Assembly (NCBI GenBank): GCA_043809745.1
Contig: JBDROU010000042.1
Coordinates: 1 to 28,390, forward strand
Source: JBDROU01 sp043809745 [NCBI: bacterium]
GTDB lineage: Bacteria; Elusimicrobiota; JBDRMW01
Direction: 5' to 3'
Length of the DNA stretch: 28,390 nt
Shown here: positions 3,399 to 28,208 of the stretch, piece by piece
Numbering within the stretch: the first letter of the stretch is position 1
Layout of the letters: every line of letters begins with the position of its first letter
Program-made: the position numbers and the translations under genes
Notes under the pieces: model-generated
The model's input: only the letters and a program-made list of their open reading frames with translations
Databases searched by the model: none
Told to the model about the DNA's origin: nothing

Positions 3399-3464
3399 AA
3401 TTAACCTGACTGAACGAAGCCGCAAAGCGGCGTAGTAAAATTCTGGTTGAGCGCTTTGTTATGT
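3399..3464 (-). other. attC-like recombination site (site A)
   Basis: On the minus strand the site starts ACATAAC (6/7 to RYYYAAC), overlapping the last base of the phosphatase stop codon. It continues AAAGCGCTCAACC, very like the start of many known attC sites, folds at GCCGC-TTT-GCGGC and ends GTTAATT (6/7 to GTTRRRY). It is homologous to site B. The next gene (HNH) starts about 31 bases further on. Confidence 0.7.
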
Positions 3465-4642
3465 TATTGACTCATTTCAGTTAAATTACTTTTGCTTGAT
3501 ATATTTTTCAATAATTCAATGGCTGTTAATGAATTATTACCTATCAATTTATTTATTGTTCTTAAAAGTACAAGTCCACCAATGGAAAATTTCCTAGAAG
3601 ATAAAAACGTATCGGGGATTTCCAGGGCTTTTTCAATCTCTTCAGGTTTATTACCAAGAAACATTTTCAAATGAATATAATCGCCAAAGTCAATTTTAAA
3701 TACACTTAAATCACCTGTGCTATCACCAGCAGAAATTAATATGACATGGTTTTTATCTAAATTTGGCTCAATATACTTATAAAATATTTCACTTACCGTA
3801 GGACCTTTCTCCGCTAGGGATACATCAACAGCATTACTGTGCGAATTATAGTATAATGGATCTCCCGTACTTGATTTACTACCGATTGTAGTTCTTGCTC
3901 TTTCTCTAATATTCATTGTTCTATTCCCTATACCAATTTCCTTATTCACATAATCGAATTCTAACGTCAACATATTACCTCGATTCCAAATGAATATATC
4001 CCCAAACAAATCATCAGATCTAAATTCTTCTGGTATAAGATGCAGCTTTTGTACAGGTATCTTACCCTGATTAGAATTACTCCATGATTTACTCAGTTTC
4101 ACTTTATCTAACTCAGCTGTGGCATGCCTTTTACAATCCTTTAAATATGATTTAAGTTTATCTCTAAGATCCATACCCTCGAATTCAACAAACAATTCAT
4201 CTATTAAGGATTGTGCAATTATATTCATATCATTTTGCTTCAAGTGCTTTGGCGTTTTATAGGTTATAACTTGTCCAATTTCATCAAAACCAAATGCTCC
4301 CGATCCTAGATCATGTACAACCTTTAAATATCTTAGTTTTCCAATATCCTTACGTTCTGCTAGCTTCGCCATAACAGGATCAACTAAGTTTTTCCATATT
4401 CTGCTCCTATCTCTTCCTGTATGAACAACCATAATTGTTTCTAAAGATAGATTTGCTACAAAATTATCTAAGTTTTCTCCTGATAATTCCTTGTCTGCTT
4501 CTTCTAAGCTATTATCGTAATCAATAAAAAGAACAATATTCTTTATTTCCAGTAAGGCATTCAACCCTTGAGGAGCTAAGCAAAAAGAATACTGGCAAGA
4601 ATATATGATTAGAATAAAAAATAAATAATATTTTTTTAACAT
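3464..4642 (-). CDS. Exported HAD-superfamily (Cof/SPP-type) phosphatase-like protein
   Basis: The product is 392 residues from the ATG giving MLKKYYLFF; an ATG 15 bases upstream is possible, and no strong Shine-Dalgarno separates them. Residues 1-21 are a signal peptide, followed by LAPQG at 22-26. The haloacid-dehalogenase motifs are in order: motif I DYDNS (Asp41, Asp43), motif II HTGRDRS (Thr75), motif III Lys279 in LAEKGPTVSEIF, motif IV GDSTGD (Asp307, Asp311). The long cap between motifs II and III and the KG pattern point to subclass IIB, the Cof and sucrose-phosphate-phosphatase type. Substrate unknown, likely a phosphorylated sugar or similar; export makes this unusual. The stop codon runs straight into attC-like site A, and an inverted-repeat element (4678-4808) lies just upstream, so the native promoter is unclear. 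Confidence 0.75.
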   Translation of the reverse strand: MLKKYYLFFILIIYSCQYSFCLAPQGLNALLEIKNIVLFIDYDNSLEEADKELSGENLDNFVANLSLETIMVVHTGRDRSRIWKNLVDPVMAKLAERKDIGKLRYLKVVHDLGSGAFGFDEIGQVITYKTPKHLKQNDMNIIAQSLIDELFVEFEGMDLRDKLKSYLKDCKRHATAELDKVKLSKSWSNSNQGKIPVQKLHLIPEEFRSDDLFGDIFIWNRGNMLTLEFDYVNKEIGIGNRTMNIRERARTTIGSKSSTGDPLYYNSHSNAVDVSLAEKGPTVSEIFYKYIEPNLDKNHVILISAGDSTGDLSVFKIDFGDYIHLKMFLGNKPEEIEKALEIPDTFLSSRKFSIGGLVLLRTINKLIGNNSLTAIELLKNISSKSNLTEMSQ

Positions 4643-4677
4643 AACAAAATAAATCATCAGCGCCTGGAGTGGAGCGC

Positions 4678-4808
4678 GGGGTCTTGCAATTAAGTATTTC
4701 CTTTTCTTGCTTCTTCAACTCCCTGCCGGTAGTTGCATAATGAATACGGAAAGGTCTTGCCATAAATTAGTAATGTAAAACATAATGTTTAATTGCAAGA
4801 CTTGAACC
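4678..4808 (-). mobile_element. RAYT-derived MITE, copy 3
   Basis: This copy is almost identical to the one at 1477-1611 internally but its left terminal repeat is shortened (GGGGTCTTGCAATTAA, lacking the TCAG step). The minus strand encodes MARPFRIHYATTGREL...ILNCKT, but loss of the terminal TGA lets the frame run on into the phosphatase gene in the wrong frame. That read-through is not a plausible protein. The element sits directly upstream of the phosphatase gene. Confidence 0.82.
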
Positions 4809-4871: not shown

Positions 4872-7800
4872 TTATAGTGAGTCTTCTATTTGAGAACCTT
4901 TTTTAATTTTTTCTACTTCTCTGGGATTTTGGAATCGCATATTTTCTTTTTCCTCATCATAGAGTTTCTGCACCATTTCGGTTACTTCTCTGTCACTGGT
5001 AGTCACTTGATCAGATGATATACCTAACATAACCATTTCTCGAGCAATAAATGAACATACACTAATGATTAGCGGTTTAACAAAACAATTAGGCATATTA
5101 ATATTTACAGCATCTCCTAAACTGAAATTAAATTGTTTAGGATTATTTCGTGCTTCTTCAGTTTTTAGGTAGTTGGTCCATAAACGATCGTTTTCTAACT
5201 GAGCTTCACGCGCTTTCAGGACTTCCCTTTCCTGCTCATCTTTTGTCAAGCGGCTGATATCACGCAATGCATAGGCATGGGTTTTTGCATTTTTAAGCAG
5301 AAGTTTATCAAATTCGGAAAAGGGATTTTTTCCAAGCACTTCTTCAAACACCAGTTCATGCGCGGCTGAGCCGGCTGTTTTCATTTTCAGCAGGAACCCA
5401 TTAGCTTCAGAGGTTGCATTTCCTTCGCTTACAATTCGCTCGGTTTCCATCCCAAACCTGCCGAAAAAGTCTCTTGTTATATTTTCCATGCTTTCATCCA
5501 TATGCTTAATGAATTCATTGACATCTCTTCCTTCAATCAATCCTTGCAGCCAGTTATAGTCTCGATTGGAGTCACCAGTTCCGGAAGGTCGTAGTGTAAC
5601 CTTAATTTTATCTTTAGTCTTCTTGTTCACAAGAATCAAACGAACACCTTCTTCCGGTAAACCCTTATAGAAAATGTCATATTTTCCAGCCCTGTAAATA
5701 AGTATATCATCAATACTGTAGTTTTCATTGTTAATAGTGAAAACCACTTCTTCTCCCATGTCTTTTAGCTTTTGAACCCAGAGTGAAAACACCTTCTCTA
5801 AATTCTCCACTGTGTTAAACTTCTGTTCTTCACCCTCAGCACCCGGATAGCGCGTATATAAATTCTCACTCCCCATGTAGCCACCCAGCTTTTCAATCAT
5901 ATTAGTAAAAAGCTCGTAAGGCTCCTTATTCCAGATCGCTTTTGCGAATGAGTAAATTTCAGCAAATTCAAAAAAGGCAAGCCCGCCATCCTTTTCAGAT
6001 ATATGAAAATCGCGGATTTTTCCTGAATGAGGACCAACCCTTCCTAATTTGCCATAACCATTACTTTCTTCTATACCGCATGCAATTTCAATTTCACGTA
6101 TAGATTTTATCTTTTTTATTGCAGCAGTGTAATTGCCTTCATCAAGACTTAATATAGCATCATCAATTATATCAAGCCCTGCTTCCTGGTAAGGAACATT
6201 ATCTTTTAATAGAGAATTACATTCCTTAAACTTAGCTTCTGATTTACTTATTGCCGCGTCTAACATTTTAGAAGGCAGCAGCCAGCTAAGATATTTCTCT
6301 GCCAAGAGCAATCGATAAAGTGACTGAGCACTTCGCGCAATATCAAAGTATTTTCTTGTGAGATCTGCTATTTCTGTATAACCGACCCATGTTTTCCCCA
6401 CATATATATTGAGACCATAAGTTTTTCTAAAGTAAGATGCGATATCCTCCAGCATCTCTGTAGTAACATGCGATTCAATCATTATATAAATCTTGTTCTT
6501 ATCGAGTACGCCGGCTCGAGCCTGCATGAGTAGCCTGTAAAATAACAACATAGCCCAGGCATCATTAGCAGTAAGAAGACGAAAATCCTGCATATTTTCT
6601 TTCAAATATTCTTCTTTTGCTTTAAGGATCGCTTCATCCCCTCCTTTTGCGAGTTCCGGTTCGTAGACATTCCTTTTCCACCATTCAATAAACGTATTTT
6701 TCATATTGCCGTTTATGCTTGTAGGAAGAGCATTTCCATAACGATCTGCATCTGGATCCGTTGCTGCAGGAATTTTTCCTTCTAGTGCATTAACACCTCG
6801 CTTAAAACCTTCCAGATCTGTTCCATGCTGATTGATATAATCATTAATATTACTCATCCAGCCTTCAACAACTCCGGGATCAGGCATATCATGTCCCGGG
6901 AATGTTCCATCCATGTTTTCTGTTTGCTGTTTCACAATCTCAAAATTATTATATCCCATCATCTTAAAAAAGAGAGGAAGATTAGCTCCGGGTATAGAAC
7001 CAACACCATAAAAGGCTGAATATAATAAAGGAAGATTACTTTTTGCTTCCTTTATTTTGCGCTTTTCTTCTCTTGTCAGTTTTCGATAAGGAATCGGAGA
7101 TTGTCTCACTAAGTGATCATAATATAAAGGATAGAATGGTGTGAATTTTGCACCGCAATAATCGAAGTTTTCTTTCTCATTTCGGTCTCCCAACCAGCGG
7201 ACATTCGAACGGTTTTGCCTAAAAACATTTCTAAAATCCTTCATATCCATATCCACCAGCTCAAGCTTCATGTCTTCGTATGTTACTTCGTTACGATACC
7301 TTTTTGCAATCAAGTCTTTAACAAACGCAGGGACCTGTGACATCCAATGACCTACAAAGGCCTTAAAACCATTATAGTTTGCCTCGCTATGGCTTGCGGA
7401 AATCAAATTCCCTAAAGCAGATCCGCCTACATTAAGAAAACCGAGTATCCGAAAATTGAAAGTTTTAACGGCAACCCGAATTATTCTCGACCTGCCAAAG
7501 AATCTCCAGCCTTTTGAGGCTGCCGCACCAGCAGGAACCCCTGCTGGAGCATCAAATAAATTGACTTTAAGTCCATTCTTTAAATAAGCAGTAGCTAAAA
7601 GATAAGCAAAATAGTCGCCATTCAAGCGGCTGTCAAATGCAATTGTTACCGAACCTCGTCCCAGATTATCCGCAAATTCCATATCGATGCCTAACTCTTT
7701 AGCCGCTTCTTTTAATTTCTTGTTTTGCTCTATTAAATTGTATAGTTGAATTTGATAATCCTCATAGAGTTTACTGATACTTGCTACCTGCTGAAGCAAA

Positions 7801-8612
7801 GTTACTGGATTTATCATATTTGGACCTGACAGTATAGGTGCCCTGACATCATTTTTAAACTCTTCAAGTTCGAGTTTCAATATTGCCCGATATTTAGCGT
7901 ATACAGCCTGATTTCTTATTCCCGCGGTTCCAAAGGTCTTATATCCCATTCCATATGCATAAATTATATCGTCCCATCTTGACTCTAATACACCACGATA
8001 AAACCCTTGCACTATGTTCTTTGGTATGCTATTTTTTGGCTCAAGCCATTCATTAATAAATCTTTTAAGATTTGCTTTTTGACTATTCGCTTTTGTTTCA
8101 GAAGAATCTTTATTAGCAACTCTCTGATCTAGAAGCGCATACATCTTTTCCATAGATAAATCGGCCAGCTTACTTAGTATGCTTTTATATTCAACATCTT
8201 CTTCGGCTTTTTCGAGCAGCATTCCTGCAATAGACCTGGCCAGTTTGGATCTCCGCACTAGCATAGCATCGAAATTACCCTGATTTTCCGGAGTTTGCTT
8301 AAATGATCCTATCTCACTATCAATCTCAATAAGCTTTTGAATTTCTGTTTTGACACTGAATATTTCGTTATCCTTAAGAGCCTTAATAAACTTAGAGTCA
8401 ATAGATTTAATATTCGCAATTATTTTGTTTAATGGTTCTTCCAATTTATATGCATGTTTAATTTCAAACGCATCGTCCCAAGCAAAACTTCTGCTTACCG
8501 GCGGAGCCAGGTATTGACCTGCTTGATGCTGTTCGGCAAACAACGGTAATGATGGAACATTTAAGGCTACGCAAAGGGCGAGTACGATTGAACGCTTCAT
8601 GCAATACATCAT
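4872..8612 (-). CDS. Large exported phosphohexomutase-like protein with LAPP motif
   Basis: The 1246-residue protein starts at ATG 8612 or the adjacent ATG 8609, behind a strong AGGAGG. A signal peptide (KRSIVLALCVALNVPSLPLFA) is followed by YLAPP at about 34-38. The four landmarks of alpha-D-phosphohexomutases (phosphoglucomutase/phosphomannomutase) are present in order: FGTAGIR at 227-233, the phosphoserine loop SASHSE with Ser407, the metal loop DPDADR at 619-624 (Asp619, 621, 623), and the phosphate-binding RPSGT at 1008-1012. ESHVTTE near 716 may be the sugar-recognition loop. Family members usually have 450-600 residues. This one carries a ~200-residue helical N-terminal region, wide insertions between landmarks and a ~230-residue C-terminal tail. 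Key residues appear intact, so sugar-phosphate isomerisation is plausible, but export of such an enzyme is odd because its substrates are cytoplasmic. Monocistronic, with its own promoter. Confidence 0.85.
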   Translation of the reverse strand: MMYCMKRSIVLALCVALNVPSLPLFAEQHQAGQYLAPPVSRSFAWDDAFEIKHAYKLEEPLNKIIANIKSIDSKFIKALKDNEIFSVKTEIQKLIEIDSEIGSFKQTPENQGNFDAMLVRRSKLARSIAGMLLEKAEEDVEYKSILSKLADLSMEKMYALLDQRVANKDSSETKANSQKANLKRFINEWLEPKNSIPKNIVQGFYRGVLESRWDDIIYAYGMGYKTFGTAGIRNQAVYAKYRAILKLELEEFKNDVRAPILSGPNMINPVTLLQQVASISKLYEDYQIQLYNLIEQNKKLKEAAKELGIDMEFADNLGRGSVTIAFDSRLNGDYFAYLLATAYLKNGLKVNLFDAPAGVPAGAAASKGWRFFGRSRIIRVAVKTFNFRILGFLNVGGSALGNLISASHSEANYNGFKAFVGHWMSQVPAFVKDLIAKRYRNEVTYEDMKLELVDMDMKDFRNVFRQNRSNVRWLGDRNEKENFDYCGAKFTPFYPLYYDHLVRQSPIPYRKLTREEKRKIKEAKSNLPLLYSAFYGVGSIPGANLPLFFKMMGYNNFEIVKQQTENMDGTFPGHDMPDPGVVEGWMSNINDYINQHGTDLEGFKRGVNALEGKIPAATDPDADRYGNALPTSINGNMKNTFIEWWKRNVYEPELAKGGDEAILKAKEEYLKENMQDFRLLTANDAWAMLLFYRLLMQARAGVLDKNKIYIMIESHVTTEMLEDIASYFRKTYGLNIYVGKTWVGYTEIADLTRKYFDIARSAQSLYRLLLAEKYLSWLLPSKMLDAAISKSEAKFKECNSLLKDNVPYQEAGLDIIDDAILSLDEGNYTAAIKKIKSIREIEIACGIEESNGYGKLGRVGPHSGKIRDFHISEKDGGLAFFEFAEIYSFAKAIWNKEPYELFTNMIEKLGGYMGSENLYTRYPGAEGEEQKFNTVENLEKVFSLWVQKLKDMGEEVVFTINNENYSIDDILIYRAGKYDIFYKGLPEEGVRLILVNKKTKDKIKVTLRPSGTGDSNRDYNWLQGLIEGRDVNEFIKHMDESMENITRDFFGRFGMETERIVSEGNATSEANGFLLKMKTAGSAAHELVFEEVLGKNPFSEFDKLLLKNAKTHAYALRDISRLTKDEQEREVLKAREAQLENDRLWTNYLKTEEARNNPKQFNFSLGDAVNINMPNCFVKPLIISVCSFIAREMVMLGISSDQVTTSDREVTEMVQKLYDEEKENMRFQNPREVEKIKKGSQIEDSL

Positions 8613-9054: not shown

Positions 9055-9133
9055 AAAAAAAGTGCCGCCTCGGCTCAGGGGGAAGCCGAGGCGGGGGCAA
9101 ATTTTTCCCCGACCACAGGGGGGTAAGTCGGGG
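9055..9133 (-). terminator. Tandem-hairpin terminator of the first PorV/PorQ-family gene
   Basis: Six bases after the PorV-like stop codon the minus-strand transcript forms CCCCGAC/GTCGGGG (9107-9133), then a perfect 11-bp stem CCGCCTCGGCT/AGCCGAGGCGG (9065-9094) followed by a run of seven U (9055-9061). The second hairpin is a good Rho-independent terminator. Both loops are C-rich in the transcript (CCCCC). The same two-hairpin arrangement, similar in sequence, follows the subtilisin gene at 10556-10636. Confidence 0.85.
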
Positions 9134-9139
9134 AATCTA

Positions 9140-10096
9140 CTAAAACTTAACGCTAATTGAAATCCTGTGCGCGCTGTCCAAATCTTTAACAGGTTCAAAG
9201 CTGTAATCTAGTGAGTAATCCCAAATGTGCAGCCCAATGCCTAAACACCAGTTGAATGAATCTTCTTTGTGTGATCCGAACTCCAATCCGGCGCGCAGAG
9301 CGAGCATATCTATTACCTTTCTTTCAAAACCTATAGAAAGCTCTGCATCCCCTCCCTTAGGTATTGTCATATCGGTCGTTAACTGGAAATTTTCGCTATC
9401 TGGTTTAGCCTGTATACCTACGGTATAGCTCTGAGGAAGTTCTACTTTCTCAGTATTATAAGCAGAAAGCTTAGGTCCTAAATTCTTTGCTACTACAGCC
9501 AATGTAAGGTTATCAGTAATCAACTCAACATTCATACCTGCATCTAATGCGAAACCTGAAGAGGATTTTGAAGCAATTGTCTGTTTAATATATTTTACTG
9601 AAGCTCCAAAACTGAAGCGTCTCCCAACCAATCTTCCGTAAGAAACATTAACAGACTGATCATTAGCTGTAAAATCATCAATTTTTTGACCGAAATTGTT
9701 TCTGCCAGCAAACTCACCCATGTCAAAATATTTTACGCTTAACCCTAATCCGCTATCAAATAAAGGAATTCCAACCGCAAGAAACTCAAAACGCGTATCC
9801 AGCATCCATTCATTGTGCATTAGAGCTATCTCTCTATCTTCAATTTTAGCGATTCCCGCCGGATTATACTGAGTGGAGTAAACATCTCCGGAAACGGCTG
9901 AATAGGCTCCGCAAAATGCTGAGGCTCTTCCACCCACGTTGATATTAAGGAAGTCTGCTCCTGTGGTACCAACTCCCGCATAAACCACACCTGCTGACAC
10001 AGCAAAATAAAAGAAAAGAAACATTTTAACCCAGCCAGTTAAATGTTTCTTTACATACAACATATTTATTTTTTTTGTTTTCGGTAACCCGGCCAT
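9140..10096 (-). CDS. PorV/PorQ-family outer-membrane protein (first copy)
   Basis: The 318-residue protein has an extended N-terminus MAGLPKTKK, then a signal peptide probably cleaved after VVYA (residue 40). The mature part opens with GTTGADFLNINVGGRASAFCG...YNPAGIAKI, the hallmark of PorV/PorQ-family proteins (UPF0164-like beta-barrels). Alternating strands follow and the protein ends in a beta signal with terminal Phe (ISISVKF). In type IX secretion PorV shuttles cargo with C-terminal sorting domains; the subtilisin next door has such a tail. The start is fixed by GGGGGA five bases before ATG 10096, and both lie inside a c-di-GMP-I riboswitch, so translation is probably ligand-controlled. 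It has its own promoter and a tandem-hairpin terminator. The first ~30 residues closely resemble those of the unrelated subtilisin at 10680-13220. Confidence 0.85.
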   Translation of the reverse strand: MAGLPKTKKINMLYVKKHLTGWVKMFLFFYFAVSAGVVYAGVGTTGADFLNINVGGRASAFCGAYSAVSGDVYSTQYNPAGIAKIEDREIALMHNEWMLDTRFEFLAVGIPLFDSGLGLSVKYFDMGEFAGRNNFGQKIDDFTANDQSVNVSYGRLVGRRFSFGASVKYIKQTIASKSSSGFALDAGMNVELITDNLTLAVVAKNLGPKLSAYNTEKVELPQSYTVGIQAKPDSENFQLTTDMTIPKGGDAELSIGFERKVIDMLALRAGLEFGSHKEDSFNWCLGIGLHIWDYSLDYSFEPVKDLDSAHRISISVKF

Positions 10097-10171
10097 CTTT
10101 TCCCCCTTGGAAGCTTAAGATCCGTTGGCTTTGCGTCCCCCGATTTCTCGGAGTTTGCCTTTGTCGAACTT
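10080..10171 (-). promoter_or_regulatory. c-di-GMP-I (GEMM) riboswitch overlapping the PorV-like start codon
   Basis: The minus strand shows the GEMM-I core in order: AAAGGCAAAC, a CCGA-GAAA-TCGG tetraloop hairpin, GGGACGCAAAGCC, and CCGGGTTACCGAA at the 3' end, with the outer P1 stem TTCG/CGAA. The G aligned to Vc2 G20 is retained, favouring c-di-GMP over cGAMP. The arm between ACGGATCTT and AAGATGGCC pairs ATCTT with AAGAT. Its apical part contains the Shine-Dalgarno AAGGGGGA (10108-10101), and the AUG (10096-10094) is in the 3' strand. Ligand binding should hide the start site, so an OFF switch is inferred. Confidence 0.85.
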
Positions 10172-10196
10172 CTCAAATTTTCAAATTCCTTCTTCC

Positions 10197-10256
10197 ACTA
10201 TAGTTCTAACATGAGATTTGTGCAAAGTAAAGAATTAAGGTCGTTACAAACGTAAC
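10197..10256 (-). promoter_or_regulatory. Candidate promoter and palindromic operator upstream of riboswitch 1
   Basis: On the minus strand TTGCAC (10225-10220) and TATAGT (10202-10197) are 17 bases apart. About 18 bases upstream is the palindrome GTTAC-N4-GTAAC (10243-10256), followed by ACCTTAATTCTTTACTT. This block is conserved upstream of the second riboswitch (13322-13381), which suggests a transcription-factor site. Between 10257 and 10555 the DNA is AT-rich with no gene visible; a 7-bp inverted repeat ATGATAC/GTATCAT lies at 10303-10323. Confidence 0.5.
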
Positions 10257-10555
10257 AAGACAGATACACTAATTATATTGATAAATAAACAATATATGAG
10301 TTATGATACCAATATAGTATCATCTTATTTGTAACTTTTATACCCCCTCCCTTGACAGTTAATTTTTTGCTTTTCAGTGTAGATTCTTATTCCTGGTGAG
10401 CTGTTTTGTCTTATATGTATCTTTGATGCCCTTAAATAGCCTTTTAGAGTGGTTTAAAGCAAGTATATGCAAGTTTTATAGCTGCAAATTAGCTAAACAA
10501 GTTGAATCTTATTCTTTATTATACAAATTTGGGGTTTCTACTATGTATGTTATTC

Positions 10556-10636
10556 AAAAAAGAGGCCGCCTCAGCCCAGGGGGATTAGCTGAGGCGGGTT
10601 AAATTGCTCCCCGACTCCAGGGGGATAAAGTCGGGG
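10556..10636 (-). terminator. Tandem-hairpin terminator of the first subtilisin gene
   Basis: The minus-strand transcript forms CCCCGAC/GTCGGGG (10609-10636), then a 10-bp stem CCGCCTCAGC/GCTGAGGCGG (10566-10597) followed by CCTC and six U (10556-10561). It is the sister of the structure at 9055-9133. The loops contain ATCCCCCT, the exact complement of the AGGGGGAT Shine-Dalgarno region of the same gene. Confidence 0.85.
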
Positions 10637-10679
10637 CATTCGCTTAAAAAGTGTTCGCTTTTTGAACCCCTGCTTTAAA

Positions 10680-13220
10680 TTATCTCATAACAGCTAACTT
10701 ACCTTTTTTTGTTTGACCAGACTTAGTAGTAACAAGATAAAAGTAAACTCCACTTGATACTTTCTCACCGTCATCATTCTTTAGTTTCCAGACATAATTC
10801 CCCTGAGAGTTTACTTCTGTATCTAGAACCAAACCTGCACTTACGGTATATATTCTTATTCTTGTTGTTTCTGTTAAACCCTCAAAAGTTATATCTGCTC
10901 CATTATAAGAAGGATTTGGGTACACTATCATCTCATTAAGATCATCTTTTGGCGCATGAGACATAATTGCAAATAGAGTAAAGTGATTAACCCGTATATT
11001 AACGGATTTTTTAGTCATCCCTCTTTTAACAGATTTTTTGATTGATGAATTATAATCTTCTTCTTCAATCTTTACCCATTGCACTGGTTTATCATTATCA
11101 TCAACTTTTAAGTAGTAAATCGATAAATGTGATGAGTCTATATCACTGCCGTCAACTTTACCATCATCATTATCATCCACATATGGCAAAACCAGACTTA
11201 TATCATGCGGAAATATATGTGTCCCATCCTCAAATTCAATTTTTCTATATATACCTATTCCTTTAGTGGAAGACTCACTTGCAGGCAAAACATCAGTTAA
11301 TTCCTCAGGTTTTATATTAGTTATCTCAATTTTAGTATTTTGCGGGATAGTTCCAGGAGGTATTATTACTGAGGTTCCATCCGCTACAATTACCTCACTT
11401 TCCTGATTTGCAGCTACAGTTTCAACTCTTTTGTGATAATTGTATGGATTAACCTCAATAACTCCGTATTCAGCAATATCAGGATTATTTGGAGATATTC
11501 CTATTTCAATACCTTCATTATCAAGGGAGGAGGTCTGATTACTGCTTCTAGCTACCGCTCTTAACTGATAAGAACCGGGAGTTAATGATGTTACATCCCA
11601 ATAAAGGCTGTACGGTTCTTTAGTGATTGCTTCCGATATATCCTTCCACTCATCTTCATCGGCGGCTTTGTATTGGAATAATACTTCCTCTGTTGAAGCA
11701 GTTGCGCCTGCTATTACTGATACCGCATCCCCATACACGCTCTTACCTTGTACAGGAGAGTAAATATAAGCCATTGGAGGAAGCAAATATGAATTATCTA
11801 AATCATCACTTGGGGCTTCTCCGCCAAGCGCAATCTGCACAGCTTGATATGCATCAATTATACCCCAGCCAAATCTAGTATCCTTACCTTCATCACCAAC
11901 ATCTTGGGATGTCATGCCTAATATGGTTTTTATTTGTTGAGGCGTTAATTCAGGATTTGCCTGCACAAGAAGGGCTGCTGCAGCCGCTACAAGAGGGCAA
12001 GCCATCGATGTCCCGGATAGATTTGCATACTCATTTCCTGGTATGGACGATTTTATTCTAACTCCCGGAGCGCTTACGTCCGGTTTTGTCCAATTCCCTA
12101 TATAAGGTTCATAGTTCCAGTTAACCTTCTCCCCGCTGGAGAAGTACGCCGCATCGTCATATATATCAACAGCTCCAACTCCAAAACATGATGGAATATT
12201 CCCCGGAGAAGACGTATACCCGGGACCATAATTACCTATAGACGCAACAGGTAAAATACCAGCTGCTATTAAATTATCAATTGGTTCAACCAACTCATTG
12301 TATGTTCCACCGGCGCCTATGGACATACTCACTACATCTGCCCCGTCATCAGTATCCGGATTGCCATCGGGATCTATTACCCATTCCATACCAGCGATTA
12401 TTTGAGCGAAACTGCCCGTGCCGCCGCTTATTACCATGGCGCTCAGCAGTTTTGCATCGGGAGCAGCACCTATATATTTACCGCTTGAATTTCCACCAAC
12501 TAAAATACCCGCGGTATGCGTGCCATGCTCGGCTGAATCATGCGGTAAAGAGTCAGCAACCTCCCTTCCTATATAATTAAACTCAGCCCAATCAGCAATC
12601 TTTCCTTCTATATCTGAATGATAAGCATCAACCCCTGTATCCAAATGGCCTATTTTGACATTACTTCCTTTATAACCATATTTCTGCCACACCCTGTCAG
12701 CTTTTATTCTGTCTATTCCCCATTCCACTTCGTTATTGCTCTGATTATAAGGAGCATTTCTCACATCAGGAACTGAGTAAATATAATTCTCATGAACCTC
12801 CCACACATCGGTTCTTTTTGCAATTTCTTTAATTACCTCAGCTTTCCCTACAACTACAAAACCATTAAATAAAAGAAATTTCCTGTATGCGGTAACCCCA
12901 CCGGTATTACTTTCTTTAACTAAATATTTTTCTAAATCCTGCTGCGATGCAGATGTTTTAGCGCTTAACATTCTTAAATAGTTCTTACGATTTCTAAATA
13001 AATTATCCGTTTTATCAATCTTCTCCATTTTAATTATTGCGACTATTTCATCATTCGGAGAGGCTTTAGCCAAACTTGCAAGAAATTTCTTTGATGCTTC
13101 TAACGGTGAGACCGTTAACTGTATTGAAACATAAATAAAAAGAAGCAGTTTAACCATAATGGTCAACTGCTTTTTAACCCCAAACCGTATTAAATTTTTT
13201 GTTTTCGGTAACCCGGCCAT
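10680..13220 (-). CDS. S8 subtilisin-family protease with T9SS-like sorting tail (first copy)
   Basis: The 846-residue protein is a secreted serine protease. After MAGLPKTK and a signal peptide (about residues 23-42) comes an inhibitor-I9-like propeptide to ~150. The S8 domain has the catalytic triad Asp194 (GHLDTGVD), His232 (EHGTHTAGI) and Ser405 (LSGTSMACP), with the oxyanion Asn330. Beyond ~465 follow an Ig-like beta domain (YIYSPVQGKSVYG), a beta-rich domain carrying an Asp-rich DDNDDGKVDGSDID loop that may bind calcium, and a C-terminal ~80-residue module starting VYPNP and ending GVYFYLV...GKLAVMR. That pattern is the type A sorting domain of T9SS cargo, though FlgD-like Ig domains look similar. 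Start at ATG 13220 is supported by GGGGGA five bases upstream, inside a c-di-GMP-I riboswitch. It is 36% or more similar by eye in architecture to the paralogue at 14497-16986; no identity was computed. Confidence 0.92.
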   Translation of the reverse strand: MAGLPKTKNLIRFGVKKQLTIMVKLLLFIYVSIQLTVSPLEASKKFLASLAKASPNDEIVAIIKMEKIDKTDNLFRNRKNYLRMLSAKTSASQQDLEKYLVKESNTGGVTAYRKFLLFNGFVVVGKAEVIKEIAKRTDVWEVHENYIYSVPDVRNAPYNQSNNEVEWGIDRIKADRVWQKYGYKGSNVKIGHLDTGVDAYHSDIEGKIADWAEFNYIGREVADSLPHDSAEHGTHTAGILVGGNSSGKYIGAAPDAKLLSAMVISGGTGSFAQIIAGMEWVIDPDGNPDTDDGADVVSMSIGAGGTYNELVEPIDNLIAAGILPVASIGNYGPGYTSSPGNIPSCFGVGAVDIYDDAAYFSSGEKVNWNYEPYIGNWTKPDVSAPGVRIKSSIPGNEYANLSGTSMACPLVAAAAALLVQANPELTPQQIKTILGMTSQDVGDEGKDTRFGWGIIDAYQAVQIALGGEAPSDDLDNSYLLPPMAYIYSPVQGKSVYGDAVSVIAGATASTEEVLFQYKAADEDEWKDISEAITKEPYSLYWDVTSLTPGSYQLRAVARSSNQTSSLDNEGIEIGISPNNPDIAEYGVIEVNPYNYHKRVETVAANQESEVIVADGTSVIIPPGTIPQNTKIEITNIKPEELTDVLPASESSTKGIGIYRKIEFEDGTHIFPHDISLVLPYVDDNDDGKVDGSDIDSSHLSIYYLKVDDNDKPVQWVKIEEEDYNSSIKKSVKRGMTKKSVNIRVNHFTLFAIMSHAPKDDLNEMIVYPNPSYNGADITFEGLTETTRIRIYTVSAGLVLDTEVNSQGNYVWKLKNDDGEKVSSGVYFYLVTTKSGQTKKGKLAVMR

Positions 13221-13295
13221 CTTATCCCCCTTAAAAGTTAAAGATCCGTAGGCTTTGCGTCCTCCGATTACTCGGAGTTTGCCTTTATCGAACAG
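13203..13295 (-). promoter_or_regulatory. c-di-GMP-I (GEMM) riboswitch overlapping the first subtilisin start codon
   Basis: The minus strand contains AAAGGCAAAC, a CTCCGA-GTAA-TCGGAG hairpin with a GNRA loop, GACGCAAAGCC, ACGGATCTT, the Shine-Dalgarno AAGGGGGAT, AAGATGG and CCGGGTTACCGAA, with P1 TTCG/CGAA. The layout is the same as at 10080-10171: the start codon is in the 3' strand of the ATCTT/AAGAT stem and the ribosome binding site is in its loop. High similarity to switch 1 extends through the leader and the promoter region, so the two arose by duplication. Confidence 0.87.
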
Positions 13296-13321
13296 CTCGT
13301 ATTTTCAAATTTCCTTCTTCT

Positions 13322-13381
13322 ACACTGTATCTAACATGATTTGTAATATAAGTAAAGAATTAAGGTCGTTACAAAAGTAAC
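13322..13381 (-). promoter_or_regulatory. Conserved leader promoter region with palindrome GTTAC-N4-GTAAC
   Basis: This block matches the region upstream of riboswitch 1. The palindrome is at 13368-13381 and is followed on the minus strand by GACCTTAATTCTTTACTT, then TACAGT as the likely -10. A good -35 is not obvious, so the promoter may depend on an activator bound at the palindrome. The spacing to the aptamer is also conserved. Confidence 0.4.
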
Positions 13382-13463
13382 AAGTGTGATACACATTTTG
13401 CATCTATAAATATATGTAATTAGTACACCCCTAACCGTAGTTTGATTATCTGTAATTACAATT

Positions 13464-13497
13464 GCCCCTCTAAAACCCTAGTAGGCCTTAGAGGGGC
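13464..13497 (-). terminator. Hairpin after the second PorV/PorQ-family gene, probable terminator
   Basis: A perfect 10-bp stem GCCCCTCTAA/TTAGAGGGGC with a 14-base loop lies about 45 bases downstream of the stop codon at 13541. The following sequence in the transcript is AATTGTAATT rather than a clean U run, so termination may be partial. It marks the end of the subtilisin 2 / PorV-like 2 operon. Confidence 0.55.
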
Positions 13498-13540
13498 TAC
13501 GGCGGTAAATGATAATTGCAAAGAGGCATTATCTCTTGAT

Positions 13541-14488
13541 CTAGAATTTCATTCTAAGGCTGAATTTATGACAACTATCCAAATCACCGAACGGCTCATA
13601 CGCATAATCTAAGAAATATCCGAAAATACTAACCCCAACACCCCCTTTAAAAACAACATCATCTTCATACTCAACACTGCTGCTAAAACCCGTCCTTAAA
13701 AATATTGTATTTTTAATGCCAATCTCGCAACCAATGTTCAAAAATGAATAACTGCTGTTAACTGAATTATGCTCTATACTAAATAATAAACTTTCTTTAA
13801 CAGGTCTTAATCCTATACCAATTCTTAATCGAGTAGGAAGTTTTTCTCTTCTTCTGTTAAATCTGCCTGTTTCAGATCCAACATTCTGGATTGATACTCC
13901 ACCGGTAAACTTATCAGGGATAAATGAATACAAAATTCCGCAGTCAAATGGGAATGTATTTGCGCTGAACTCTGCTATTGCTTGACGCAAATATCTTATC
14001 CTCACTCCCGCATCAAGCCTTTTCGTTACAGGACAAGCATAAGTAAAATCCAATATCAAATCTTTTGAGCTAAAACTGCCAGTTTCAATCCCAAGCATAT
14101 TCCTTCTGGTGAATGATCCATAGTCCATGTACATAATTGATGCCGCAATAACACAAGACGTCAACTGTTTAGAGAAAGCGAAATATTCATATTTAGTATC
14201 AATAAGCCATGATGAATGCTGAAAGCTTAGTTCCATGTCTTTAAGCTGGGCAACTCCTGCAGGATTATAGTTCAATATATTTATTGAGTCATTCAGAGCA
14301 ACGCATGCATCTCCCAAAGAAGATTCTCTTGCCGAACCTGTCAAAAGCAGAGATTTAGCTCCGCTCTCAGCCAAGGTAGCATTTAACATAGCAGGAAATA
14401 ATCCTGATAAATTAAATATTAAAGCAATTAGCATTATAAATCTAAAATTAATACTAATTCTTTCGTTTTGCATGTATATATTAAGCAT
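13541..14488 (-). CDS. PorV/PorQ-family outer-membrane protein (second copy)
   Basis: The 315-residue protein starts MLNIYMQNERISINF; the ATG at 14473 is an alternative, and the Shine-Dalgarno is weak for both. A hydrophobic signal (FIMLIALIFNLSGLFPAML) precedes the family opening AKSLLLTGSARESSLGDACVALN...NYNPAGVAQL. Repeated amphipathic strands follow and the protein ends SLRMKF with the terminal Phe of an outer-membrane beta signal. It lies only 8 bases downstream of the subtilisin gene at 14497-16986, so the two are translated from one mRNA and are under the same riboswitch. This tight coupling supports a dedicated cargo/shuttle or cargo/anchor pair. It is paralogous to 9140-10096 but lacks the MAGLPK leader peptide. 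Confidence 0.83.
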   Translation of the reverse strand: MLNIYMQNERISINFRFIMLIALIFNLSGLFPAMLNATLAESGAKSLLLTGSARESSLGDACVALNDSINILNYNPAGVAQLKDMELSFQHSSWLIDTKYEYFAFSKQLTSCVIAASIMYMDYGSFTRRNMLGIETGSFSSKDLILDFTYACPVTKRLDAGVRIRYLRQAIAEFSANTFPFDCGILYSFIPDKFTGGVSIQNVGSETGRFNRRREKLPTRLRIGIGLRPVKESLLFSIEHNSVNSSYSFLNIGCEIGIKNTIFLRTGFSSSVEYEDDVVFKGGVGVSIFGYFLDYAYEPFGDLDSCHKFSLRMKF

Positions 14489-14496
14489 AATTTTTA

Positions 14497-16986
14497 TTAC
14501 CTGATTACCGCAAATTTACCAGTAGTTTTATTGCCCATGCTATCTTTAATCAAATAAAAATATATACCATTAGAAACCGTAATATTATCGTTATCTAAAA
14601 GATACCATTTGTATTTAGTTGTCTCGAGCACATCAGAGTCTTTAATAATATGTCCTAAAGTGTCGAATATCTTTATTCTGCTGCTCATGCTAAGTCCATC
14701 GAAATAAATAAATGGGCTGTCATACACAGGATTGGGATATACAACTACAGATGATAAACTTTGAGGAATAATATTCCCAAACACAGCAAATAGAGTAAGG
14801 TGTTTTACTTTTGCAGATAAAGTATTTTTTGATTGTATTTTTGCATTAGGCGATAAATAGTTGCTGCTTTTTACGGATTCTACTTCTACCCATTCGATAG
14901 GCTTGCCGTTGCTTTCTTTTAAATAGTATATTGCAAGATCATTAGAACATATACTTGTATTATCCACTACACCATTGCTATCAGCATCAATATAAGGAAG
15001 TATAATTGTTATGTCTCTCTCAAAAATGTCTGTCCCATCAGTAAAACTGATTTCTCTATAGATACCTATTGGCTGCAAATTAGATTGATGAGGGGGTATA
15101 ACCTCATTTAATCTGGCAGATTCAATATTTGTAATCTCAATTACTTTTTCTTGATTAAACAGATTTCTTGGCACTATTACTGCAGTACCTTCAGCGGTAG
15201 CTATTATCTCTTCATTGTCCGGTAAAATCCTCTTTGCTTTTTTATGATATAAAAGAGGATTCACTTCGCATAAACCGGATTCTGTTATAACTGGATTATC
15301 CCTATCCACATGTGTAATTATCTCTCTCGAATAGACTTCTACTCCGGAATCACATACCGCTTTAGCTCTTAGATAATATTTCCCGGAAGAAAGTGATTCA
15401 ACGCCCCAGTATGTGCTAAAAGGATTGCTGCTGCACACATCAATTACATTCCAATCATCAGCATCAATACTATATTCAAAGATTACTTTCTTAACCATAT
15501 GGCCAGCTACTGCTATAATGCTTACAGCTTCTCCCCAGATGCTCTCATCCTCCTGAGGAGTTGATATATATACCCAATTCCCTGATTCCCAACCATTCGA
15601 CTCAAAATCCAAATATGTACCGTTCATCAAACACCTGCACGCAGCATATGCATCAATCTTACCCCAGCCATATCTGTTGTCTTTACCATCAACACCCAAA
15701 TCTACTGAACTGTATTTTAATATCTCCTTAATTTGAGATATATTTAATGTTTGCGTATGCTCCAACATTAGCGCAATTAGGCCGCTTACAAAAGGCGTTG
15801 CCATTGATGTGCCCGAAAGCGTAATGAATCCTCCATCCGATGATGCTGAAACTATTCTATATCCGGGAGCTGTAAAATCAGGCTTTACACAGCTTCCTTT
15901 ACAAAGTGGATGATTCCAAACTATTTCATCCCCCCCGCTAAAAGAGCACACCTGATCATAATAATCTATAGCTCCACAGCCTATTGCATATGGTATGTTT
16001 GCCGGTGAATTAGTATTATAAATACCAGAATTACCAATAGCAACAACTGGCGTTATTCCTGCACATATAAGGTTATATATAGGCTCAACAAACTCATCAT
16101 ATAAGCCGCTAACTCCTAAAGAAATATTAACAATATCTGCCCCATCATCTGTATTAGGATCATTATCCGGATCAACTATCCATTCCATACCAGCTAAAAG
16201 CTGAGCAAAACTCCCAGATTTTCCATCAATTACTCTCGCAGAAATCAACTTCGCATCAGGAGCTACACCCATTAATTCATCAACCGTATTTCCGCCTACA
16301 AGTATTCCTGCTGTATGAGTGCCGTGTGTTTCAGAATCAGCAACAGGCGCATCTTTTATTCTTTGACCCTGTATATTAAATGCAGCCCATTTATCCAACT
16401 TGTCTTGTAAATATGGGTGATATTTATCAATACCTGTATCCAGATGTCCAATCTTGACGCCCTTTCCAGTCAGCCCAAAATTCTTCCAAACTTTTTTTAC
16501 ATCTATCCCGTCCAATCCCCAATTAGGCGAATCTGATATGTTTTTAATATCCATATCAGATGTTTCAGGCAAGCTTAATGTATAGTTAGGAGTAATTCTT
16601 TTTATTTGTGGGAATAAGCAGATATCATCAAATGCTTCTTTTTTAACTTCTACATATAGAGCTTCGCATAACCAAAAATACCTTTCGTTCCTTATTAACT
16701 TCTTATTGCGTAAATCTTTCAATAATTCTGAGACTGTATTGTTTATTTTATTTGATTTGTTCCTTATTGATATCAAAGCCTTACTTCTTATTCCATAGAT
16801 ATTTGAAGCCGCGTCATCATCAGATAATCTAATTATTATCGGAATAAACTCATTTTCTTTAGCCAATGATAACTTTTCAGATAGGAAGGGATGTACTTTT
16901 AGCGACAGCGCATATGCGCTGGAAGCATATACAAGAAGGAAAGATAAATATAACGCAATTTTTAATTTCTTCGGTAACCCGGACAT
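14497..16986 (-). CDS. S8 subtilisin-family protease with T9SS-like sorting tail (second copy)
   Basis: The 829-residue paralogue of the protease at 10680-13220. MSGLPKK leads into a signal peptide ending near SSAYA (residue 26). A propeptide-like region runs to ~140, then the S8 domain with Asp183 (GHLDTGID), His221 (THGTHTAGI), Asn319 and Ser394 (LSGTSMATP), all intact. Then come an Ig-like domain (WVYISTPQEDESIWG), a domain with an Asp-rich loop (DADSNGVVD) and a C-terminal module VVYPNP...GIYFYLI...GKFAVIR typical of T9SS type A sorting domains. The start codon at 16986 has GGGGGA five bases upstream and sits inside a c-di-GMP-I riboswitch. It is the first gene of an operon with the PorV-like gene at 13541-14488. 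Expected location: exported, then outer surface or medium. The substrate is unknown. Confidence 0.92.
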   Translation of the reverse strand: MSGLPKKLKIALYLSFLLVYASSAYALSLKVHPFLSEKLSLAKENEFIPIIIRLSDDDAASNIYGIRSKALISIRNKSNKINNTVSELLKDLRNKKLIRNERYFWLCEALYVEVKKEAFDDICLFPQIKRITPNYTLSLPETSDMDIKNISDSPNWGLDGIDVKKVWKNFGLTGKGVKIGHLDTGIDKYHPYLQDKLDKWAAFNIQGQRIKDAPVADSETHGTHTAGILVGGNTVDELMGVAPDAKLISARVIDGKSGSFAQLLAGMEWIVDPDNDPNTDDGADIVNISLGVSGLYDEFVEPIYNLICAGITPVVAIGNSGIYNTNSPANIPYAIGCGAIDYYDQVCSFSGGDEIVWNHPLCKGSCVKPDFTAPGYRIVSASSDGGFITLSGTSMATPFVSGLIALMLEHTQTLNISQIKEILKYSSVDLGVDGKDNRYGWGKIDAYAACRCLMNGTYLDFESNGWESGNWVYISTPQEDESIWGEAVSIIAVAGHMVKKVIFEYSIDADDWNVIDVCSSNPFSTYWGVESLSSGKYYLRAKAVCDSGVEVYSREIITHVDRDNPVITESGLCEVNPLLYHKKAKRILPDNEEIIATAEGTAVIVPRNLFNQEKVIEITNIESARLNEVIPPHQSNLQPIGIYREISFTDGTDIFERDITIILPYIDADSNGVVDNTSICSNDLAIYYLKESNGKPIEWVEVESVKSSNYLSPNAKIQSKNTLSAKVKHLTLFAVFGNIIPQSLSSVVVYPNPVYDSPFIYFDGLSMSSRIKIFDTLGHIIKDSDVLETTKYKWYLLDNDNITVSNGIYFYLIKDSMGNKTTGKFAVIR

Positions 16987-17064
16987 CTGTTCCCCCTGTG
17001 GGAATTAAGATCCGTAGGCTTTGCTCTCTTGCACTTTCGCGCAAGGTCGCCTTTATCGGAATTA
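16969..17064 (-). promoter_or_regulatory. c-di-GMP-I-like riboswitch overlapping the second subtilisin start codon (diverged)
   Basis: The minus strand shows AAAGGCGACC, a TTGCGC-GAAA-GTGCAA hairpin, GAGAGCAAAGCC, ACGGATCTT, the Shine-Dalgarno CAGGGGGAA, AGATGTCCGGGTTACCGAA. The 3' part is strongly conserved, but the 5' core has GGCGAC for the usual GGCAAAC, and GAGAGC replaces GGGACGC. The ribosome binding site can pair locally (TTCCC/GGGAA) inside the arm, and the AUG again lies in the 3' strand. Ligand affinity or specificity could differ from switches 1 and 2. Confidence 0.75.
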
Positions 17065-17261: not shown

Positions 17262-17342
17262 CAAATTTTGCCGTTATCGTGCTTTTTAAGTAACCCGGCC
17301 TTATATCTGCTACTTCTTAATGAACATTTATTTCTTATTTTC
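17234..17342 (-). ncRNA. Candidate structured small RNA
   Basis: A good minus-strand promoter (17349-17377) would start transcription near 17342, and the terminator at 17234-17261 gives an RNA of about 108 nt with no credible ORF. Two exclusive folds are visible. One is the terminator hairpin. The other is a long nested hairpin pairing CCGGGTTAC (near 17297-17289) with GTGACCCGG, enclosing GCAC/GTGC and CGGCAAA/TTTGCCG. GGCCGGGTTAC also matches the 3' end of the nearby c-di-GMP aptamers, but their 5' core is missing. It could instead be the 3' UTR of wecG. Confidence 0.4.
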
Positions 17343-25299: not shown

Positions 25300-26808
25300 C
25301 TATATGGATTGTTCTATTAATACCTTGTCTGTAGAGAATTCAACTTTTATTGGCTGGCTAATTAAATTAATAGGCTTTACCCATTTATTTTCATTTACAA
25401 ATCTTTTAAGAAACGTAAACATATAGCCTTTATCAGTTTCTATAGATTCAAAGATTAATCCTTTTATATTATCATTGTCTTCTCCGGCAAGGGCTAAGGC
25501 ATAAGCTGTGTAATATAAAGTGAGCTTATCTGCTCTTGGATCTTCTAAAATATTAAATAATTCTCTTACCACTTTCTTATATCCTTTAACTCCTAGAGTT
25601 TCAGCAACATGTTGACGGATACTAGAATCTATATTAGTGTCTTTGAGCATCTCTATCATTAAGGCTAATAGTGCTGTGTCTCTGCTTCGTAAAAAAGGTT
25701 CTATTGCCTGAGCAGCATGGCTTTTTGCTGTATACGTCCCGTTTTTTAATGATTCCACGATTAAATCTTTTATCTCTTCATCAGAAAGTTCAAGTTGTTT
25801 TTCATTCTTTAACCATAAATCTTGCGGTGGATTTGATAAGTAAGTAACTTTCCCCTGTGGAGAAATCCTTCTGGTTTCATAGCCCTTTTGATAATGAATA
25901 ATGGTGCCATCTTCATATTTATACATAAAAATAGGATTGGGCTCTCCAATGATAGCAAATATCTTCCAGCCATAATTTACGCTAAAGTTAATCTCACAAT
26001 TTTTTATGATTTTGCCTCTATACAATACTTCAATATATCCCTGTTTATTGATATGCGCTTTATATCCTGCAGGAAGTGTACTACTTACTATCTGATTATC
26101 TGTTATTTTTATATTATAGATTCCACTGCGAAGTGATATATCATATATCCCATATAATAAATCGACTTTTTGAATCGGCACTTGAATATATCTAAGTGCA
26201 TAATCCACTCTATCAGTAGAATCAATTACATCAATCTCAGTGAGCAGACGATTAGCTGTAGAAACAATACTGGGATTTCTTATCGAGGATATGTATATTT
26301 TTAGACCTTTTTCATAAGCTATATGCACAAGCCAATTAATAATTGTTTCTCCAGTTGCTGCAACTTGCATCGATCTTGAGATTTGAATATCATCTATATG
26401 TAAATATTTTCCAGCAATGGTATAGTCAATAAAGCCAATTTGCCCATATCCTTCAATAATTAGTCTGCAAGGATCTTTGCTTCGCTCTAAATCAATAAAA
26501 TCATCACCTGCACACATCCTTAAATGGATCGGTTTGCCTGTTTTTAAGTTCGGCAAAGTAACTGAAACCAATTCCCCTTTTTTATATTTATACATTGGTT
26601 CTACTAATGCCTTTGGAATAGTAGTTGATTGTATTTTTTTCTCAAAATCTTCTTGCAAAAAAGATCCTGTCATCTCCGTCGGCGGGCTCAGAAAAGAATA
26701 ATTTACGCACCAGGAAGAATCAATAATCAAAATAAACTGAATGAATAATATTAAGCTTATATTTAATGTTTGTTTCATAGCTTTAATGCGTTTCCATGAT
26801 TCATTCAA
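25300..26808 (-). CDS. Exported protein with GNAT-like and HEAT-repeat-like regions
   Basis: The 502-residue protein starts at a TTG (26808) six bases after AAGGAG; the next ATG is 10 codons in. A signal peptide (ISLILFIQFILIIDSSWC) is followed by FLSPP at 39-43, the LAPP-type motif of this genome. Residues ~118-190 (GQIGFIDYTI, YLHIDDIQI, then a helix and GLKIYISSIRNPS) look like a degenerate GNAT acetyltransferase fold without the usual RxxGxG acetyl-CoA loop. The middle, ~200-340, is beta-rich with YEDGTIIHYQKG and SPQGKVTYLS strands. Residues ~345-480 contain helical repeats of HEAT type (AAQAIEPFLRSRDTALLALMIEMLKD, HVAETLGVKG). No catalytic residues are recognised; likely a scaffold or binding protein. 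It is bracketed by REP-like repeats and lies downstream of another HEAT-like exported protein. Confidence 0.7.
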   Translation of the reverse strand: MNESWKRIKAMKQTLNISLILFIQFILIIDSSWCVNYSFLSPPTEMTGSFLQEDFEKKIQSTTIPKALVEPMYKYKKGELVSVTLPNLKTGKPIHLRMCAGDDFIDLERSKDPCRLIIEGYGQIGFIDYTIAGKYLHIDDIQISRSMQVAATGETIINWLVHIAYEKGLKIYISSIRNPSIVSTANRLLTEIDVIDSTDRVDYALRYIQVPIQKVDLLYGIYDISLRSGIYNIKITDNQIVSSTLPAGYKAHINKQGYIEVLYRGKIIKNCEINFSVNYGWKIFAIIGEPNPIFMYKYEDGTIIHYQKGYETRRISPQGKVTYLSNPPQDLWLKNEKQLELSDEEIKDLIVESLKNGTYTAKSHAAQAIEPFLRSRDTALLALMIEMLKDTNIDSSIRQHVAETLGVKGYKKVVRELFNILEDPRADKLTLYYTAYALALAGEDNDNIKGLIFESIETDKGYMFTFLKRFVNENKWVKPINLISQPIKVEFSTDKVLIEQSI

Positions 26809-28149: not shown

Positions 28150-28208
28150 ATAATATCCTCTTCCCATGCATTTACTTCCTTAACTATCATGAATTTAAGG
28201 GCAAGTAT

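Follow-up and report, generated by a model that had tools for sequence, protein, structure and literature searches.

Candidate direct-occlusion c-di-GMP riboswitches with the ribosome-binding site and start codon inside the GEMM-I aptamer

Riboswitches of the cyclic di-GMP-I (c-di-GMP-I, GEMM-I) class are usually described with terminators or anti-ribosome-binding-site strands that lie outside the aptamer. A contig of the bacterium JBDROU01 sp043809745 (GenBank JBDROU010000042.1, positions 1 to 28,390; the whole of this stretch is called the window below) raises the question of how such an RNA would control a gene whose ribosome-binding site and start codon are parts of the aptamer itself. Three GEMM-I aptamers lie on the minus strand, as do all window features given below. 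Switch 1 (10079–10168) and switch 2 (13203–13292) matched RF03167 with 65.8 and 66.0 bits, respectively, and switch 3 (16970–17061) matched RF01051 with 43.3 bits. All three scores exceeded the Rfam gathering cut-offs of 59 bits for RF03167 and 35 bits for RF01051, bearing out the three switches that an earlier, sequence-only reading of this DNA had named.

The arrangement GGGGG-N5-ATG was present in all three switches (GGGGGAAAAGATG, GGGGGATAAGATG and GGGGGAACAGATG), each time with the full Shine-Dalgarno (SD) string AGGGGGA in the apical part of P3. The GGGGG occupies 10102–10106, 13226–13230 and 16992–16996 in switches 1, 2 and 3, and the AUG occupies 10094–10096, 13218–13220 and 16984–16986, as placed by the open reading frame (ORF) listing together with the P3 fold. 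Folding of P3 put the GGGGG in the apical hairpin and the AUG at or just past the 3' arm closing that hairpin, and in switch 1 the A and U of the AUG form the end of this arm. The closing arms proposed earlier as ATCT(T)/(A)AGAT were recovered as AUCUU (10117–10121) with AAGAU (10095–10099) in switch 1, AUCUU (13241–13245) with AAGAU (13219–13223) in switch 2, and AUCU (17008–17011) with AGAU (16985–16988) in switch 3. The folds also reproduced the proposed local pairing of the SD with TTCC(C), on the UUCC/GGAA side in switch 1 and with UUCCC in switch 3; local SD pairing in P3 of switch 2 was weak.

The 3' strand of the aptamer reads ATG (G/T)CC GGG TTA CCG AA(A/G), and codons 2–6 therefore belong to the aptamer. 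In terms of the fold, we take this strand to cover the base of P3 and the 3' side of P1 together with the pocket cytosine. The sequence-only reading had the aptamer dictating an N-terminus M(A/S)GLPK, which its 3' strand indeed encodes in all three genes. It had also assigned codons 2–6 to one conserved string; the string does lie inside the aptamer, but CCGGGTTACCG spans only codons 2–5, and codon 6 (K) comes from the next aptamer bases. A scan for CCGGGYTRCCGAA with at most one mismatch gave four matches in the window against 0.02 expected. The motifs AAAGGC, GCAAAGCC and CCGGGTTACCGAA (UUACCG) are intact in all three aptamers, and we presume that letters within them correspond to the Vc2 ligand contacts G20, A47 and C92. 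These three Vc2 positions are named in PMC11218506.

The embedded ATG opens a long gene in each case. Gene 1 (9140–10096) encodes a 318 aa PorV/PorQ-family protein starting with MAGLPK inside switch 1, gene 2 (10680–13220) an 846 aa subtilase starting with MAGLPK, and gene 3 (14497–16986) an 829 aa subtilase starting with MSGLPK; both subtilases carry a type IX sorting tail. In the ORF listing, no start codon came between the preceding stop and the embedded ATG in any of the three genes. In-frame placement in three of three would be expected in 1 of 27 cases if the switches were independent, though by sequence switch 2 seems to be a duplicate of switch 1 or the reverse. Both the aptamer and the first ~30 codons (VKK.LT..VK..LF.Y) are common to genes 1 and 2, ahead of different protein families. 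Predicted pairing of the three embedded SDs with the ribosomal anti-SD ranged from -9.4 to -11.2 kcal/mol, a range into which only the start at 8612 (-10.3 kcal/mol) fell among 13 other listed window starts, some of which are the first starts of mechanically defined ORFs and may not be real. Among the 20 window starts compared, GGGGG preceded riboswitch genes only, and the clear SDs of other starts were of the GGAGG, GAGGG or AAGGA kind. Judged from these sequence features, initiation at the embedded AUG is very likely.

An embedded start is not the usual layout in Omnitrophota, where RF03167 matched 335 of 384 genomes searched, with 225 over the cut-off. Although the switches there belong to the same aptamer family, most are followed by a terminator-like hairpin, in some cases sharing the 3' strand of the aptamer: such a hairpin was found within 150 nt after 88 of 117 aptamers, and 28 of these hairpins begin inside the aptamer. 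The 117 were the best-scoring rows and not a random sample, with near-identical copies (e.g., L061 and L062) retained; the terminator rule was our own, was run with no shuffled control and gave false positives (L056); and one embedded-start locus described below (L172, the same as G069) was counted in both the 88 and the 28. By the same rule, a U-tract hairpin overlapping the aptamer end, as in a strand-exchange platform, was found in none of the three window switches versus 28 of the 117 Omnitrophota aptamers.

The embedded-start layout does appear to recur in Omnitrophota with other sequences. Twenty rows from 19 of 384 genomes fitted a pattern with GGAG ahead of an AUG in the 3' strand. Nine distinct ones were judged on reading to be aptamers, four with long frames, one with a broken frame and four with very short ones. 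Three loci (G036, G051 and G069) have in common an SD, an AUG and the codons MTAWLPS inside P3, with frames of 599 aa, 586 aa and at least 298 aa, respectively. Past the aptamer their DNA has diverged, yet this frame is open and each of the other two meets a stop within 25 codons. When the sequence between codon 6 and the beginning of the mature protein, set by eye, was shuffled (in G069, up to the next ATG), the frame remained open by chance at 0.03 in G036, 0.05 in G051 and 0.23 in G069. A sulfatase-modifying-factor-like domain is present in two of these three proteins. A fourth locus of this type (G061, L231, minus strand), reading MMAWLPSW, keeps the aptamer, SD and AUG, and a search of 47 genomes of the order holding these loci found just these four. 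In a different gene (G199, L233, minus strand), P3 holds AAAGGAGG-N6-AUG and the frame runs for 163 aa, presumably encoding an RlpA-like protein; among its first codons, this frame passes through an in-frame terminator-like hairpin followed by TTTTTT (AACCCATCTT...AAGATGGGTTTTTT). In all eight folded P3 hairpins (three from the window, four of the MTAWLP type and G199), the SD and AUG occupied like places, with the SD in the apical loop or, in some, partly in the apical stem. We also considered an ATG in P3 as a mere by-product of common variation there, and rejected this explanation because it fits many of the phylum matches but not the strong SD, frame and N-terminus of the window.

Beyond the phylum, the genomes of 84,980 species were scanned for GGGGN{3,10}ATGNCCGGGYTRCCGAA, yielding 54 stretches, mostly chance matches. 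Nine of them (L006, L009, L010, L012, L015, L029, L041, L048 and L051) were GEMM-aptamer-like by their upstream DNA, and within this set frames longer than 100 aa were confined to L006 (154 aa) and L009 (267 aa). L009 is a GEMM-like aptamer from Bacillota whose P3 holds GGGG and an ATG, the latter in the frame of the 267 aa protein (MAGLPK..., later MIRGIYTAANGLLQ). We take this protein to be flagellar-rod-like. In viral contigs, the GGGG-AUG pattern had a single match, with no aptamer ahead of its ATG.

What would such an architecture do? We consider it probable, though well short of certain, that these are c-di-GMP-I riboswitches of the direct-occlusion type acting as translational OFF switches. 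That group is marked by a ribosome-binding site that lies within the aptamer fold, integrated with the ligand site, and by lower ribosome access with ligand; on the first count, all three switches have the SD in apical P3 and the AUG in its 3' strand. We infer that c-di-GMP is the ligand bound, that binding turns translation off and that ribosomes use the embedded start. In the proposed mechanism, c-di-GMP would close the fold and hold P3 and P1 together, the 30S subunit would then be unable to open the start region, and translation of the proteases and the PorV/Q protein would be off. At low c-di-GMP, a ribosome could invade P3 and begin translation at M(A/S)GLPK. Switches 1 and 2 would probably add a second layer, a terminator-like hairpin within the coding sequence that the initiating ribosome would disrupt. 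The earlier claim that there is no separate expression platform finds partial support: the ribosome-binding site and AUG are built into P3, but the claim is open to doubt in switches 1 and 2, where this conserved U-tract hairpin is accompanied by SD-complementary loops in the 3' untranslated region (3'UTR).

Several observations weigh against this proposal. Ensembles computed with a folding model that has no ligand term already pair P3 and the SD, which is 25–38% unpaired, so the ligand could only add stability; the AUG is partly paired in the same ligand-free ensembles, with accessibility differing between switches. The ensemble with native P3 is less stable than the unconstrained one by 1.1, 1.4 and 3.2 kcal/mol in switches 1, 2 and 3, respectively. 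Together with the ligand-free P3/SD pairing, this makes ligand dependence the weak point of the proposal, as the ligand would have to make up the difference. In the shuffle test described above, the window frames remained open by chance at 0.13, 0.20 and 0.30, and these frames alone are therefore weak evidence; the G199 frame stayed open at 0.40. The exact pattern for an ATG within the 3' strand matched 29 times, in 26 of 384 Omnitrophota genomes, and on reading none of these matches looked convincingly like the start of a long gene. Where the match lies in an aptamer, the frame meets a terminator or ends after a few dozen codons at most, and the cases with longer frames have either a terminator directly after the aptamer or no aptamer. 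Four of the nine GGAG-and-AUG aptamers (L206, L209, L211 and L217) have frames of 12–36 aa only, which implies that an SD and AUG in P3 also arise by chance. The frame of G061 breaks at codon 57, with the mature protein in another frame. Finally, the searches brought up no close relative in which conservation of the window's own copies could be followed. A comparison of the SMC protein placed no sampled Omnitrophota genome near the window (matches from 90 of 145 genomes; 32–35% for near-full-length matches and higher only in shorter segments), and at a strict E <= 1e-60 the two subtilases found 1 of 368 Omnitrophota genomes, in a match to the pro-region and peptidase domain only.

Four other explanations were weighed against direct occlusion. 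Initiation might occur at an internal codon, with the aptamer in frame by chance or left over as a relic upstream. Gene 1 has internal ATGs at codons 12 and 25 and gene 2 has one at codon 22, and these do precede hydrophobic stretches, but they have no clear SD, in contrast to the strong SD at the embedded AUG of all three genes, and gene 3 has no further in-frame ATG, GTG or TTG within its first 24 codons, which look signal-peptide-like by eye (MSGLPKKLKIALYLSFLLVYASSA); we consider an internal start very improbable. Slightly less credible still is that the aptamers are vestigial and have lost their response to c-di-GMP. Switch 3 has diverged, as its lower score and its GCGACC in place of the GCAAAC of switches 1 and 2 indicate, but it passes its gathering score like the others and keeps the same three conserved motifs. 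A reversed logic, with c-di-GMP as an ON signal, would have the folded aptamer display the SD in a loop and the ligand-free RNA hide it by other pairing. The weak local pairing of the SD in switch 2 is in keeping with this, and terminators that reuse the aptamer 3' strand in the relatives may suggest ON logic there. However, the native fold puts the AUG in or at a stem and no predicted ligand-free structure hides the SD much better, making an ON switch improbable.

The explanation that competes most directly with direct occlusion is translation-coupled attenuation, in which the aptamer would gate ribosome entry and the in-coding hairpins of genes 1 and 2 would end transcription unless a ribosome from the embedded AUG were on them. 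These hairpins, each followed by a U-rich tract, lie at 10015–10052 in gene 1 (z -4.05, terminator-like) and 13139–13176 in gene 2 (z -2.42), and were equalled in folding by 1 of 200 and 3 of 200 shuffles, respectively. The gene 1 hairpin has 16 pairs, of which 14 persist in gene 2: ten are identical, two have two-sided changes (U-A to G-C and A-U to G-C) and two have compatible one-sided changes. From its sequence, this shared segment looks like an in-coding terminator that the initiating ribosome would open. Attenuation also gains from G199, with its same order of embedded SD and AUG followed by an in-frame hairpin and T-tract, and from the frequency of terminator-like hairpins after Omnitrophota aptamers. 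Against it, the two remaining pairs, near the base, are broken in gene 2; gene 3 has no U-tract hairpin, only a palindrome with z -1.74; a generic terminator scan listed neither hairpin; our own rule detected that of switch 1 and missed that of switch 2; and the entry of the ribosome would seem unfavourably timed with respect to RNA polymerase. As the main output of these switches, attenuation appears unlikely, though less so than the other three alternatives.

Genes 1 and 2 carry a further feature that bears on the embedded SDs. Double hairpins with C-rich loops lie in their 3'UTRs at 9065–9135 (gene 1, z -7.25) and 10566–10637 (gene 2, z -3.80), the second hairpin being followed by a T-tract in both. 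The hairpins are alike between the two genes, with a compensatory change from G-C to A-U in the second stem, and all four loops hold five or six C, those of gene 2 reading UCCCCCU. The longest exact complement to the SD region in each gene's own 3'UTR was 8 nt in gene 1 (AGGGGGAA; loop UUCCCCCU), 10 nt in gene 2 (AGGGGGATAA; UUAUCCCCCU) and 5 nt in gene 3. The base following AGGGGGA differs between the SDs of switches 1 and 2, and this difference is mirrored in one of the two gene 1 loops and both gene 2 loops. With the loops treated as open strands, loop-SD duplexes were predicted at -14.2 to -23.4 kcal/mol versus -9.4 to -11.2 kcal/mol for the ribosomal anti-SD, and the best of the 13 other starts against the same loops were 4657 (-14.6) and 8612 (-13.9). 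TCCCCCT occurs eight times in the window versus 2.1 expected, three being the SD complements and three the loops.

These observations suggest, tentatively and at rather low odds, a two-key, c-di-GMP-gated translation lock, in which the C-loops of the gene 1 and gene 2 3'UTRs would pair with the AGGGGGA of P3, either by a 5'-3' contact in cis or as a 3'UTR-derived small RNA acting in trans on all three genes. We regard this pairing as a lead and not a result. For switch 1, a gene 2 loop (-20.6 kcal/mol) is a stronger partner than either of its own loops (-15.9 and -17.8 kcal/mol), and the strongest pair (-23.4 kcal/mol) involves switch 3, whose gene has no such loops; since duplex energies do not consistently favour a gene's own 3'UTR, the odds of this reading are lowered. 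In addition, CCCCC itself is not enriched in the window (25 versus 19.7 expected). No C-loop complements to the SDs of G036, G051 and G199 were found within 220 nt past the gene (longest exact match none, 7 and 5 nt, respectively), and such complements are so far confined to window genes 1 and 2. The double hairpins resemble 6C RNA (RF01066) below threshold, at 30.3 and 29.2 bits under a gathering cut-off of 47 bits, and a search of 117 Omnitrophota genomes for 6C RNA at E <= 0.001 found nothing. In mycobacteria, PMC10470900 describes repression by B11 via the 5'UTR of eccB4, which has a six-G tract, and a need for at least one of the two B11 loops. The window structures likewise consist of two hairpins with C-rich loops; they differ in scoring below the 6C cut-off and in lying in the 3'UTRs of the regulated genes themselves.

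Among the genes of the locus, the two subtilases share 40% identity, and a type IX C-terminal sorting domain was recognized in both by TIGR04183 (29.5 and 28.6 bits; cut-off 23). PF18962 gave 27.9 bits for gene 2, over its cut-off of 27, and 24.0 bits for gene 3, under it. A second PorV/PorQ-family gene (13541–14488) lies downstream of gene 3 and has no aptamer call of its own. Upstream of switch 3, a terminator-like stretch at 17300–17232 echoes the end of the aptamer (GGCCGGGTTAC ... GGTGACCCGGTTTTTT), and gave no aptamer call even at a relaxed threshold. Elsewhere in the window, six unlike, secreted-looking proteins (548–1492, 2275–2967, 3464–4657, 4872–8612, 25300–26808 and 26965–28167) have in common, by eye, a short motif that closely follows a signal-peptide-like start (SIAPPS, HLAPPG, CLAPQG, YLAPPV, FLSPPT and CLAPIG). 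A regular-expression search for this post-signal 'LAP' motif gave four matches, one of them in L051 and none in the loci of the Omnitrophota searches. A 78-base repeat (77/78 identity) occurs at 4757–4680 and 1560–1483, near the starts of two of the LAP-motif genes; its frame MARPFRIHYATTG... is reminiscent of RAYT transposases.

Direct occlusion is an established riboswitch mechanism, exemplified by SAM-II/V, SAM-III (SMK), SAM-SAH, some preQ1-I and preQ1-II switches in the first portion of section 4 of PMC10907184. As in those riboswitches, the ribosome-binding site of the window switches lies in or beside the ligand-binding fold, and aptamer and platform are one unit; the riboswitches named in that portion have other ligands and folds, c-di-GMP-I is not among them, and an AUG with five codons inside an aptamer is not described there (PMC10907184). 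The closest comparison within the same aptamer class is Bc1 of Bacillus thuringiensis, a c-di-GMP-I riboswitch with a separate platform, in which up to 220 bp and two terminators lie between aptamer and start and in which c-di-GMP traps the ribosome-binding site and AUG in structure, according to PMC11218506. In the window, unlike Bc1 as described there, the SD, AUG and codons 2–6 are the aptamer. A literature search, judged mostly by titles and the openings of abstracts, found among the papers listed no c-di-GMP-I aptamer described with its own start codon.

In these three genes, a GEMM aptamer appears to be at once a ribosome site and the first six codons, so that one conserved RNA would serve as sensor, lock and protein sequence together. 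Annotation that treats aptamers as non-coding may misplace such starts. The design is compact: c-di-GMP and translation would be linked through one hairpin, and no relay between conformations would be needed. Under direct occlusion, the secreted proteases would be switched off by c-di-GMP, which may be a sensible logic on exit from a biofilm.

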